DNA from: Amphibalanus amphitrite | Taxonomy: Eukaryota > Arthropoda > Thecostraca > Balanomorpha > Balanidae | Assembly (NCBI RefSeq): GCF_019059575.1 | Contig: NW_024882322.1 | Location: 62,001-126,000, forward strand | Direction: 5' to 3' | DNA: 64,000 nt | In this document: positions 13,001 to 63,829 of the stretch, in pieces | Position numbering within the stretch: the stretch's first letter is position 1 | How the letters are laid out: each line of letters opens with the position of its first letter | Notes under the pieces: model-generated | Databases searched by the model: none | What the model saw: only the letters and a program-made list of their open reading frames with translations | What the model was told of the DNA's origin: nothing | Position numbers and translations under genes: made by a program

Positions 13001-16000
13001 TACATGCCACACAACCGTGCTCGTAACTTAGGTACGTTATCTTTAAAACCCTATTTTGGCGACTATTTGAGGTTTTCGTCTGTGACGTCGAAATTTGCCG
13101 TGCAAGGCTCTACAGAAATCGACCCTGTGACGTCATCAAGGGGACTGGATGACGAATTGATGGGGGGGAGTTATGGTACATTGTACTTAACCCGCGCCCT
13201 GATGGGGGGGGGCATTTTGGCCCCCCTGTGGTTTTTCTTAAATAGCGAGAAAACGGCGGCGCGCAGCGCCGCCACCGGGCATCAATTTGACACCTTCACA
13301 CAAAATTTCAAGTCACAGGTCACCTCGGGTCAGGAGTTATTGAGGTCAAACTGAGGTAATGTTCGAGTAAAAATGAGCAAAAAACATGACATCTTGAAAC
13401 GCTCACCAATTCTACAGTTAACAAGCAATTTTAAAGTTCTTTATGTGGTTGTGTAGAAAAAAACGGCGCTACAAAACGGCTATCCTGGATGTTTGAAATT
13501 TTGGGTATTTGACCCCCAAAAATTAAAAAAATGAATTTTTTAGAAAAAAACTCAAAAAAATTCCAAAATTTTTCGAATTTTGAGAAAACCGGAATATATG
13601 TGGTATAGTCTGTTTTTCGTATCTTCTACCTTCACTCAAAGACGGTAAACTCTCTAGTCACGTGCTCCAGCGAACATCTAATTAAATCGACACCGCTGCC
13701 AAGTCAATTTTTATCTCGAACGCAAGATCGAACGTCTGTCCCCTTGGCCTATCCCGTTAATCAAAATGCAATGTTCTTTGTCAAGTGAAATGCATTTGCA
13801 TAAAAACGTGTCATCATATTTTCATTCTGGCAAAATTATCCCTTTCTAATTTCATTATGTTTTCAAACAACAGAAGGGCAATGGCCTTGGTCTCAGACAA
13901 GACAAAATGATCGTAACGTTTTCTTTCAACGTTTCAAAGCAAAAGAAATGTGGGTTAGGTTACTGAAATAAGGCGGTGAAGAAGGAGCACAACCAAAGAA
14001 TATCGCCAGAATCGAACTTACATCTTCATTACAAACTTACATCGAACTTGCCTACTTCATTGGATACCAGAAACAAAAGTGTTAAAGGCGCGGAGAAACA
14101 CCGACGGTGGTGGCACAGTTCAACTCCGTCATGCTTTCAGCGCAATATAATACGAAAAATGCATACGTGGGTGTTATTGTTGTTATTACCTGCATTTGTG
14201 TATCATAATATAAGCCCTAAGGCGTTGGTGATTGCCAGCGGTCAAAAAGTCATGTCAGATGATAAAGATCACTGCAGCAGCTTTCGACAATACCTAATAG
14301 CTGCTAGAACTAAAAATGTTTCGACGGCGCTGTAGTTCAATCGGTTGACAAGGTTTGGTCAGATTTGTCCAAACATGTTGAGCTCGGGATTTTTTTAAAT
14401 TTATGACCTTCAGTGGCCTTCACTACTGACCTAAGCAAAATGCGGTATACCTATACTATATACGTATACTACTAAAGTAATTGTTGAGAGCTATCGATTC
14501 TTGCCCGCGTCTTCGCATCTTTCTTACTTTTCGGGATGATCGCGTGAGGCAGATAGGAAAACTACATATAAGATGAAGCAAATCTGCCTGGGGACCCCCA
14601 AGCGGGCGTGGGCTAAGACAATTTTGTTATTCGTCGGTGTAAAATTTAGCACAACGTAAATAAAGCAAAACATAAATAAAGCATGTGAAAAAAATATGGC
14701 AGAACATATAGCACATTTAGTTTCTTTTACCCAATGAAAAGGTGCAAGCTTTAAACTTTTATTTAAATGTTCTTAGCAAGAGCGCTTCGCACAATGCAAG
14801 TACCTATGAACAGCAAAACGTCCTTGTGTATAGGTCGGTAGTCAGTGTACCACTAAACCGTGGTAACGATAATACAAGCGATACTCTAGCTTAAAGGTTT
14901 CTTTTCCGATTTTATCTGCGCAGCGAAGGCGAACTCCAACACGAGCAACAAACTCCTGCAATGAGTGGTGGGCCATGCGGTCAAGATTTGAAAACTATAC
15001 CCTAAAAACGTGCTGGACGGGCAAAACATCTTTGAGTGAAGGTAGAAGATACGAAAAACAGACTATAGTCCCTTTGCTCTTCGATATACATACCAAATTT
15101 CAGATCGATATCTCTTTTTTTTGCCAAGTTATAGCGAAAAAACTGTTAAAATTGATGACGTCAAATTTTTGAACTCAATTTTTAGCAATTCTAGACCATG
15201 TAGCGCAAAACGGAGACCACAATTGAACTCCCCGTGACAAGCTGCATCGAATCAATACCCATTTTATGCAAAAATATCAACTTTGAAATTTGACCTCATT
15301 TGACCTGACCTTGACCTGACCTTGACCTGACCTTCACCAAAACATAATCTGAACCGACCTCAAGGGCTGTCTATCCCACATAATCGCATTTGGCATATGA
15401 AATGGACCATAAAACATGCATCACATGATATTTTTAATTTGTGACCCTCAGTGACCTGACCCCTTTGACCTGACCTGGTATCAGTGACCTCAAATAGCAA
15501 AATATGTGTTTGACGAACATTTCCCCATCGATGATTTTCAATGAAATGCATTTCACTCGATTTTACAACGCATTTCTTGAAATGCCTGTAAACGGTGAAA
15601 ATTCGACCTTTGACCTGACTTGTGACGTCATCGGTCTGACCTAGGTCAATGAAATTCGGTCACAAGGTAGTTCCCCATTGGGGCTATCCAACACCGTTTG
15701 CCGCTTGTCGCTATGTTGCGTGGTTCTCGAGATCTTAGGGGGGGGGCAAAATGCCCCCCCCCCCCATCAGACCGCGTTGCTCGGCAGACCCCATCAGGGC
15801 GCGGGTTAAAGAAGTTCGGGAGCCATCGCAAATATTCGTCAAGGGGGAAGGGTAAAATTGTTCTCCCAGGCCCATCAGTGTAAAGTAGGAATGCGTTTCT
15901 GACTGTGTTTCCCTATTCTTTGTAGACAACTGGCGGGACTGGACCTTCAACTACCGGGGCATCTTCTTCACTCCCACGAAGGACGTCAGCCTGCTGGGCG

Positions 16001-16233
16001 GCGTGCCGCTGTCGCTGCCCTACACCGTCGAGGATTCGGAGAGCTTCCAGTACAGCGACGGCATCGGTCAGGTGTCGTTTCCGTACCTTCAGGACAACGG
16101 CTCGCCGATCCTGATGCACGCTAACACGGACGCCGCGTCGCCGTTCGGCGGGCTGATCCGCACCGGCGGACCCATCCGCTGGTCGCCGCCGGCCGATTAT
16201 CCAGACGATGTCTACATCTACATCCGCGAGTGA
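10005..16233 (+). CDS. Secreted PAN/apple plus fibrinogen-like domain protein (three exons)
   Basis: Exons 10005-10624, 10991-11076 and 15926-16233 join in frame (620+86+308 bp) to give 337 residues. Residues 1-17 are a signal peptide ([17 protein letters not shown]). Residues 18-98 look like a PAN/apple domain (Cys 46, 48, 49, 52, 58, 70, with [16 protein letters not shown]). Residues 107-125 form a short Cys knot. From residue 133 on, [22 protein letters not shown] and [11 protein letters not shown] resemble a fibrinogen-related domain, here nearly free of cysteine. NAS and NLT are likely N-glycosylation sites. The start has a good context (TCACCATGC). The likely role is extracellular binding or recognition; the exact function is not known. 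All three splice junctions are canonical and phase-compatible. The join is predicted and not confirmed by RNA. Confidence 0.85.
10991..11076 (+). CDS. Exon 2 of the PAN/fibrinogen-like gene
   Basis: This 86-bp exon is bounded by a T-rich acceptor ending TTTGCCAG and a GTAAGA donor. Exon 1 ends with two bases of a codon, and exon 3 needs one carried base. A bridging exon must therefore be 2 mod 3 long, which 86 is. It supplies [20 protein letters not shown] and continues into [12 protein letters not shown]. Joining exon 1 straight to exon 3 would give an immediate stop, so this exon is required. Confidence 0.85.
11107..12178. mobile_element. 284-bp MITE family, copy split by a HINE-like insertion
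   Basis: The left part (11107-11187) matches the family start (GCCGTTTTTCACGACGGCCA). The right part (12049-12178) resumes at TTCTTAAAAG, exactly where intact copies continue. The right terminal repeat is missing because the neighbouring TTAA element begins abruptly at about 12190. Confidence 0.75.
11188..12048 (+). mobile_element. HINE/Helentron-like element, diverged copy, within intron 2
   Basis: The 3' end is a CGCC-CAAAA-GGCG hairpin followed by TTTTACTGG, and the next host base is T. The 5' end carries GACGAGCGAGCGAGCG, with an inverted match near 12011-12020. The interior has five diverged repeats of the sentence (AACNGCTGGGCCGATTG…) at about 11291, 11461, 11616, 11748 and 11876. CACGTGCGCACGTGC is present at about 11719-11733 and 11848-11862. 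TT target, asymmetric inverted repeats, 3' hairpin and central tandem repeats are the known hallmarks of HINEs; the assignment is inference. Confidence 0.65.
12192..12992. mobile_element. Family-1 TTAA element, left (B) end lost
   Basis: Internal family-1 sequence starts at TTTGACCTCAGGTCAACG. It continues with the usual AGGTCA/TGACCT core and ends in a G-run/C-run hairpin, CGGCCC tag, GGCGCGGG and TTAA (12993-12996). The B end, about 350 bp, is absent. The conserved block before the right hairpin has been replaced by a long (TA)n array. Confidence 0.8.
12803..12927. repeat. (TA)n microsatellite, about 125 bp
   Basis: An uninterrupted AT dinucleotide run. It produces the Ile-Tyr repeat frames on both strands, which are not genes. 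Confidence 0.98.
13191..15805. mobile_element. Family-2 TTAA element carrying an insertion
   Basis: Bounded by TTAA at 13187-13190 and 15806-15809. Ends are CCCGCGCC and GGCGCGGG. The left tag is CTGATG and the right tag CATCAG is present twice. The hairpin core is CATTTTGG on the left and CAAAATG on the right. Removing the 1,460-bp TA element and its TA duplication leaves about 1,153 bp, the standard length. The core is full of TGACCTGACC strings (for example 15295-15340). No transposase. Confidence 0.9.
13606..15065. mobile_element. 1.46-kb TA-target DNA transposon with 37-bp perfect inverted repeats
   Basis: TA occurs at 13604-13605 and 15066-15067. The inverted repeats begin TAGTCTGTTTTTCGTATCTT and are identical for 37 bp, then diverge. 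Uninterrupted relatives of the host read TGATAGTCCC at this point (55219-55228), so the empty site is known and the TA duplication is real. The longest internal frame, 13976-14335 (119 codons), has a hydrophobic stretch but no DDE-transposase feature, so the element is probably non-autonomous. It has inserted into a TTAA element that itself lies in intron 2 of the PAN/fibrinogen-like gene. Confidence 0.85.
15926..16233 (+). CDS. Exon 3 (terminal) of the PAN/fibrinogen-like gene
   Basis: The acceptor is CCCTATTCTTTGTAG. The exon reads from [14 protein letters not shown] to the stop TGA at 16231-16233 (…VYIYIRE). Codon use is strongly GC-ending, as in exon 1 and unlike the surrounding repeats. 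No AATAAA was found close downstream. Confidence 0.85.
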
Positions 16234-62839: not shown

Positions 62840-62956
62840 TTAACTGGAGGTCACTAAAGTTTCGTCGTAATAGGCCGTTTTTTGCGAGCTATTTGCGAAA
62901 ACGTGAGGGGGGTTTACCGACCCACACACCCCGACCCCGATATATGCGATGGTTTA

Positions 62957-63829
62957 CCCTCGCCCGTATAGGGGGGGGGGGGGGGTCGAACGGACCCCCC
63001 CCATGGTTTTTCGCAAATAACTCGCGTAAAAAGCGGCCGATCGCGACGAAACTTTCAGTACCCTCGCGTTCATCAATTTTACACCTACCCTGAAAACTTC
63101 ATGACCCTGACCCTAATGACCTTTGACCTGTGACCTACTTTTCGAGACCATGTTTGGCCGGAATCGCGATTCGGCGTATGTCGGCTCGCATTAGCCGCGC
63201 GTTTTCAGTCTTTTCGTGGTTTCAAGCGTTCAAACATGTGATAAGATGTTGCCCCCATGCATTAGGGTGGGTGTCAAGGTCACCTGAAGGTCAGGTTAGG
63301 TCATTGACCTTTGATGACCTCGGTTCACTTTTTCGAGTTTTACATGTTTCTAGACCAATTTTTGGAGCTGAATTCGAATTTAGCAACCATATGAACATTT
63401 ACGAAGTAGTTTTGGTGCCTTCGTAACATGTTACGAAGCTGTTAGAGGCGGTTGCCACCTACTACGAATACCCTTACTGGTTGACCTGACCTGACCTGAC
63501 CCGACCTGGCCTAAATGCATGAAGACATCATCTTGATCAAAACTAACATGATATTCGTGATCAGCACCCCGAAAACCCCATAGCAGCCACACTTTACGAC
63601 GTTCTAACAGGTCCCGATTTTCCCGACCTTTGGGTCATTGACCTGACCTGCAAGGTCAACCAATGACCTAGGACCTTAAAATTGGGTACCATCGGCTTCC
63701 TCTCGTCACGGGCAACACGCTCGTTTTTTTCCGCGAAGCTCTAGCTCGAGCAGGGGCGAAACGGCAAGGGGGGGGTCCAACGGACACGTTACACGTTCGC
63801 GGCTGGAAAAACACCAATACGGGCGAGGG
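62957..63829. mobile_element. Family-3 TTAA element, complete
   Basis: TTTA at 62953-62956 and TTAA at 63830-63833. Ends CCCTCGCCCGTATA and its near complement. Hairpin cores GTCGAACGGAC and GTCCAACGGAC. Interior matches 34697 and 60936. 873 bp. Confidence 0.9.

Follow-up and report, generated by a model that had tools for sequence, protein, structure and literature searches.

Matched six-base words at the unequal ends of piggyBac-type TTAA elements in Amphibalanus amphitrite

Structures of piggyBac place contacts at bp 2-6 of the transposon end, show the dimerization and DNA-binding domain (DDBD) widening the major groove at bp 9-14 and a dimer of the cysteine-rich domain (CRD) binding a palindrome at bp 17-33, and distinguish the right end RE63, which carries a 17-bp insertion and a duplication, from the left end LE35; hairpin intermediates form at the TTAA tips (PMC7351741; for this and the other published systems named here we draw on parts of the cited reports). 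Miniature inverted-repeat transposable elements (MITEs) of corals, the CMITEs, are about 100 bp long, with an estimated ~1,600 copies in Acropora millepora, and their cross-mobilisation by various transposases has been suggested (PMC2872659). Here we describe elements from a stretch of 64,000 nucleotides of Amphibalanus amphitrite (contig NW_024882322.1, positions 62,001 to 126,000; hereafter the window), in which a six-base word near the tip, the tag, largely agrees between the two ends of a copy and can differ at most of its bases between copies whose interiors are alike.

We class these elements as non-autonomous members of the piggyBac type, with TTAA target sites and two unequal ends, here called S and D. 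Counting from the first base inside the TTAA, the constant part CCCKCGCC occupies bp 1-8 and the tag bp 9-14 of either end; in the S end a G-run, a loop and a C-run follow directly, and in the D end the tag is followed by about 20 bp and a repeat of the tag before the G-run, loop and C-run, with a spacing of ~27 bp between the outer (D1) and inner (D2) tags. With two tags in its D end and one in its S end, a copy carries three in all (S1, D1 and D2). At its final base the constant part may change along with the tag (CGCA, CGCG), and the palindrome loop 3' of the G-run also tends to agree between S and D ends. CCCKCGCC, or a variant of it by one or two bases, stands inverted at both ends, a property that is built into the search rule. 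Of 34 paired copies, 29 are flanked by TTAA at both ends, and in five a CTAG, TTAT, GTAA or CTAA takes its place at one end or at both. The S palindrome spans bp 14-40 (medians) and the D palindrome begins at bp 40-46, a shift of 26-31 bp (median 27) in which only the narrowness of the range is evidence, since the two classes were set by palindrome position. Asymmetric ends that carry a palindrome and a duplicated word are what is expected of the piggyBac class. The motif TTAACCCNCGCC occurs 40 times at ≤2 mismatches against 14.6 expected, and in the genome as searched (807.6 Mb in 2,644 contigs) the pattern TTAACCCKCGCCN{6,9}GGG has 21,323 forward and 62,079 reverse matches, counts in which the variable gaps may cause one site to be counted repeatedly, with 3 and 6 for the reversed control.

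An earlier note on this sequence had listed ten copies with matching strings at their two ends. All ten starts are present in the window, and the outer tags agree exactly in six of the ten (all coordinates take in the TTAA copies). The tag CTGATG is carried by the element at 13187-15809 (forward strand, S to D; S1 at 13199-13204, D1 at 15792-15797, D2 at 15765-15770), CCGTAG stands at S1, D1 and D2 of the element at 17474-18646 (forward), and CGCACATG stands at all three sites of that at 35781-36690 (forward), whose exactly matching outer tags are given as CGCACA(TG). GGGCCG marks the element at 56739-57903 (forward; S1 at 56751-56756, D1 at 57886-57891, D2 at 57860-57865), and the element at 19312-20502 (reverse) has CCACTG at S1 and D1 and CTACTG at D2, an inner word that both CCACTG copies share. 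The sixth, at 52632-53825 (reverse), reads CTGCTG at all three sites and is nested in another listed copy; its flanks are both TTAT, which suggests that TTAA is not strictly required as the target. This nested copy sits inverted within its own subfamily.

Agreement is partial in the remaining four. The element at 34693-35519 (reverse, core CCCTCGCA, TTGA on the S side, S-side interior lost) has S1 TGTGTA, D1 TGTGTG and D2 TGTGTA, and that at 62953-63833 (forward, TTTA on the S side) has S1 CGTATA, D1 CGTATT and a damaged D2, so that five of six tag bases agree in each, although the string ATGTGT that had been quoted for the former does agree. The element broken by the nested copy, at 52303-54654 (forward), has S1 CTGCTG and D1 CGTCTG, which agree at four of six bases, with an inner D2 of CTGCTG. 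The copy at 32249-33565 (reverse) matches at five of six bases between its outer ends, ATGCTG (D) and GTGCTG (S), but is a composite: its first D end, 155 bp long, stops at a TTAA, beyond which lie another D end of a different kind and a complete interior. This second D end begins at 32403 and has GGGCCG twice; the pairing that starts at 32402 combines GTGCTG with GGGCCG. The composite looks like either a nested insertion or a recombination product. The idea of two matched ends thus holds as to agreement but needs amending, in that the ends are not equivalent and each copy has three tags.

To judge agreement without reference to the tags themselves, we assembled 34 pairs from 273 kb of sequence (8 copies from the window, and 26 from loci picked because they surround listed tips, hence not a random sample), in which ends were assigned to S or D by palindrome position alone and then paired by orientation; ends without a palindrome stayed unpaired, and unpaired ends were excluded from the counts. 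This palindrome rule was used instead of a classification by the G-run only, which gave 19 pairs and misread CTGCTG D ends. S1 equals D1 exactly in 21 of the 34 pairs, against at most 8 in any of 10,000 shuffles, and the mean S1/D1 mismatch is 0.62 of 6 bases against 3.44 when shuffled (p ≤ 1e-4). The words directly before the G-run agree exactly in 20 of 34 (shuffled at most 8), and the agreement persists within core groups, with 11 of 18 exact in the CCCG group (shuffled maximum 8) and 10 of 16 in the others (shuffled maximum 7). Together with listed places elsewhere in the genome, these pairs bear out the expectation that tags agree far better within copies than between shuffled ends.

Genome-wide, we counted ends with patterns that join the exact tag to short anchors in the shared interior, so that mutated tags drop out on both sides. 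Matches number 791 + 794 for S-TGTGTA, 861 + 843 for D-TGTGTG, 570 + 548 for S-GGCACA, 540 + 579 for D-GGCACA, 480 + 462 for S-CGTATA and 544 + 584 for D-CGTATT, with none in the reversed control of any of these. D ends with CTGCTG at both D1 and D2 occur 547 + 492 = 1,039 times and those with GGGCCG at both 302 + 315 = 617 times, and the mixed end with D1 GGGCCG and D2 CTGCTG occurs nowhere in the genome (the opposite mix was not searched). Each of the five tags tested therefore recurs, at 617 to 1,704 exact-pattern ends. The match counts, the reversed control and the shuffles rule out chance as the source of tag agreement. One match on a viral contig (L031), with no second tag or palindrome in the next 120 bases, we take to be a chance hit.

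Pairing by position was done among the matches listed, which for S ends were 100 of 1,585 TGTGTA, 67 typed in 100 of 1,118 GGCACA and 54 typed in 100 of 942 CGTATA places, for D ends 100 of 1,704 TGTGTG, 82 typed in 100 of 1,119 GGCACA and 82 typed in 100 of 1,128 CGTATT places, and for a generic S set 100 of 3,872. TGTGTA pairs with TGTGTG 66 times and GGCACA with GGCACA 39 times, so that 105 of 105 are concordant where shuffling gives a mean of 55.9 and a maximum of 73. For S-CGTATA, 25 of 54 places have a listed D end, and all 25 are CGTATT, in a pairing that did not use rows beyond C18, nor D rows from certain contigs that had no S row. In all, 130 of 130 copies with both ends typed are concordant across three tag types that share their interior anchors; 11 S ends with an untyped tag also adjoin CGTATT D ends.

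The tags contrast strikingly with the interiors, as the earlier note had held. Of the CCCTCGCC and the CCCGCGCC elements we read one group each in depth, and found that interiors can be as similar between tags as within a single tag. The interiors of L043_3907 (GGCACA) and L046_2118 (TGTGTA) are 93.7% alike and their S1 tags differ at four of six bases, whereas three GGCACA copies are 91.3-92.3% alike among themselves under the same cut; with another cut of the interior the values are 94.6% and 93.5-95.2%. Over all three sites, 13 of 18 tag bases differ between these two copies by hand count, which at an interior divergence of 5.4% has a binomial probability of 2e-13. This pair thus shows different terminal inverted repeats (TIRs) on alike interiors, as CMITEs do. 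The border of likeness can be placed in the alignment: the block after the S palindrome is 92-98% alike across tags (L037_871, L043_3907, L046_2118, L041_7032), and the module before it differs in tag, in loop and once also in the last core base; in W_34692 this block has been lost, with 41% identity there. In the CCCGCGCC group, CTGCTG, GGGCCG and CAAGTG copies share a near-identical loop and flanks under different tags. Interiors of the same tag reach 98.7% identity, and the mean over the eight copies read is 92.0% within and 89.3% between tags. In a tree of the eight interiors the GGCACA and the CGTATA copies each fall on one side of a short branch (0.005-0.007; support 82/84 and 83/87), which weakly suggests interior subfamilies that the tags follow. 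A single interior clade for TGTGTA is rejected (p 0.003 in the approximately unbiased test), one of its two rows being old and partly deleted. Tags falling into a few old subfamilies had been named as an outcome that would refute the observation; they do mark subfamilies, but subfamilies with nearly the same interior in which 13 of 18 tag bases differ.

We consider it probable that the tag is a recognition word of the transposase, that copies derive from masters with matched words and that each subfamily is served by a transposase specificity of its own. By analogy with piggyBac, the tag would be the DDBD site and the S and D ends would correspond to the left and right ends, the D end consisting of S-end parts plus an insertion and the duplicated word. 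If one transposase must bind S1, D1 and D2, a copy would move well only when its words agree, and copies would therefore descend from masters with matched words; the need for one protein to bind all three would likewise keep the three words equal. Each tag would then mark a subfamily with its own transposase, and a new subfamily would come about once an existing interior received two matched end modules, whether placed on it or selected onto it. Subfamilies held apart by transposase recognition were one of two explanations put forward at the outset, and the one favoured here, as tags recur and stand at the position that the DDBD reads in piggyBac.

Several observations weigh against this reading. 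S1 and D1 are not identical in 13 of the 34 pairs, and the disagreements are systematic: D1 differs from S1 in five of eight CTGCTG copies (CGGCTG three times, CAGCTG and CGTCTG once each), is CGTATT or CATATT in the CGTATA type and TGTGTG in the TGTGTA type, and in the GGCCGA type is GGACCT in one paired copy (L035_5889, whose inner word equals S1) and in four unpaired D tips. From these four types it follows that the outer D word need not match perfectly. The tags of L047_4977 agree in part only. By eye there are about 17 tag types among the 34 pairs, and as copies of one subfamily are not independent, the real sample is nearer 17. In the genome, one of 117 position-paired copies has an S end with an untyped tag beside a GGCACA D end (its S place is absent from the covering part of the S-CGTATA matches listed), and 34 of 100 TGTGTA, 28 of 67 GGCACA and 29 of 54 CGTATA typed S ends have no listed D partner. 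Finally, no transposase was found between ends of the present tag types, and of the 116 transposase loci the two that were read (L052 and L053) both have TTAACCCATTA... ends on the side seen.

How matched words could change at both ends is where explanations compete. If recombination or template switching during gap repair fitted one family's interior with both matched ends of another, joining them at the G/C runs and at the GGTTTTTCG motif that they share, both ends would change at once, so that this is a refinement of the recognition reading rather than its rival; we regard such an exchange as quite possible, if short of probable. It would account for the border at which copies of different tags become 92-98% alike after modules that differ, for the GGCACA palindrome and flanks, which at either end look by eye like their counterparts in the CTGGCA family, and for the composite at 32249-33565, where ATGCTG-type outer ends surround sequence closer to the GGGCCG type with a GGGCCG-type D end. 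Yet that composite shows a gradual change, not a sharp junction, and may have come about through a nested insertion that later lost sequence by deletion; no GGCACA-tagged donor with an unrelated interior was seen, and the CTGCTG, GGGCCG and CAAGTG copies, which differ chiefly in the tag and in some of the spacer beside a nearly identical loop, look stepwise. Such a gradual course, in which tags mutate site by site, partial mismatch is tolerated and selection for a changed transposase restores agreement, is plausible without being the probable answer: besides the changed tags next to similar loop and flanks in the CCCGCGCC group, it would explain the CTGCTG copies with a D1 of CGGCTG, CAGCTG or CGTCTG and the near-neighbour tips in the genome (CGGCTG, CGGCCG, CCGCTG), among which S and D are not told apart. 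It fits poorly with GGCACA and TGTGTA, where 13 of 18 tag bases and the loop have changed over 5.4% of interior difference and no intermediates were seen.

Plain inheritance from a few masters, with the tag having no role, is unlikely in our view. The likeness of same-tag interiors (up to 98.7%) and the placing of GGCACA and CGTATA interiors each on one side of a branch, at supports that are not strong, are what it would predict, but it leaves unexplained why each master had equal words at both ends and why tags should differ at most positions against some 5% in the interior. Active correction, in which every transposition would pass through a hairpin or cruciform that lets one end be converted to match the other, was the other explanation first proposed, and we now hold it to be very improbable. 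The ends do agree and contain G/C palindromes, and piggyBac passes through hairpins at its TTAA tips (PMC7351741). Routine correction is nevertheless hard to maintain because the same disagreements persist (CGTATA/CGTATT, TGTGTA/TGTGTG, CTGCTG/CGGCTG, with D1 CGTATT more than 1,000 times) and the different layouts of S and D, which conversion would level, are kept; moreover, the tags recur and are not private to single copies. We thus return to the recognition word as the preferred reading, within which exchange and stepwise change are the two candidate routes by which both ends change together.

Possible sources of transposase are abundant in this genome, with 116 scored matches to the piggyBac transposase domain (PF13843), many of them open frames near 600 amino acids. 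One transposase of this genome matches piggyBat (9c0f) at 1.7e-27, its best match in the PDB, and PB (6x67) at 6.8e-10. As queries, the transposases of L052 and L053 recovered no sequences from the window and the fetched loci other than their own and one another's, which is in line with the elements being non-autonomous. With their TTAACCCATTA... ends, neither is shown to serve the present tags as a mobiliser; a transposase proper to each tag is nonetheless what the recognition reading would predict. At L053 (702-862 onward) the transposase has an open frame of 604 amino acids and nine genome matches of equal score (258.7 bits), and its element, which appears to begin at TTAACCCATTAGTG, is contained in another element of D type (core CCCGGCAC) whose palindrome is laid out in the same way; a comparable end, TTAACCCATTAACG, is present at L052. 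At L051 no TTAACCC stands in the first 700 bp, beside a C1 match, where a transposase end was sought.

Other features of the window include three unpaired tips: an S tip with tag GGGCCG (12985-12996, reverse) and two D tips of the GGCCGA subfamily with D1 GGACCT (18643-18654, forward; 61915-61926, reverse, the latter with inner word GGCCGA). At L050 (8878-8910) there is a short TTAA-flanked palindrome in which two tips with tag CCGTTG stand face to face with almost nothing between, which looks like an extreme deletion product. S tips that are in frame read LTRA-x-x-GGG (20467-21198 in the window and similar frames), so spurious frames of this kind may litter the gene predictions of this genome. 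The window also has simple repeats, (AT)n of 125 bp at 12803-12927 and (TC)n of 176 bp at 29256-29431, and frames for a reverse transcriptase of the long interspersed nuclear element (LINE) type, a second reverse transcriptase and a PAN domain. The two reverse transcriptase frames lie close together at 21030-25422, and the second may resemble Penelope.

If the tag is a DDBD word, these elements offer thousands of natural test cases for the bases that a piggyBac-type transposase reads, would show how three sites stay matched and how non-autonomous elements change enzyme, and would make the acquisition of new ends by MITEs directly testable. More tentatively, and with somewhat less than half our belief, the matched end modules may be a heritable unit exchanged between lineages, by which one interior is passed among transposases, so that the genome would hold a natural library of a dozen or more DDBD words together with the ends that partner them.

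The claim that no described element behaves in this way was wrong in part. The central oddity has already been described, because the TIRs of coral CMITEs differ more than their interiors: like the present elements, these TTAA MITEs are tied to piggyBac-like elements and are better conserved inside than at their TIRs (Wang et al., 2010, PMC2872659), with a TIR that differs by family behind a constant CCC tip. Compared by description, the parts of that report drawn on here mention neither a repeated word within one end nor an S/D asymmetry (PMC2872659). We recognised no report of the three-fold tag agreement, or of its placement at a DDBD word, in the open-licence literature (subscription papers lay outside the search), where the coral CMITEs were the only close precedent among the papers listed. 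In Galileo of Drosophila willistoni subfamilies likewise coexist, and trees of the TIRs and of the transposases give the same two groups, but Galileo belongs to the P superfamily and has long TIRs (PMC4168063). PiggyBat, of the piggyBac superfamily, has asymmetric ends that are both needed and a palindrome bound by two CRDs; unlike here, its ends are described without a simple repeat layout, the left end having three copies of the palindrome and the right end none (PMC11707139). The closest parallel is piggyBac of Trichoplusia ni, which shares the TTAA target, a word at bp 9-14 and a palindrome after the word, and whose right end is the left end enlarged by an insertion and by a second copy of the word (LE35 and RE63 differ by 28 bp, against a shift of 27 here); it differs from the present elements in their G/C-run palindromes and in that no transposase was found within them, the comparison being one of layout (PMC7351741).

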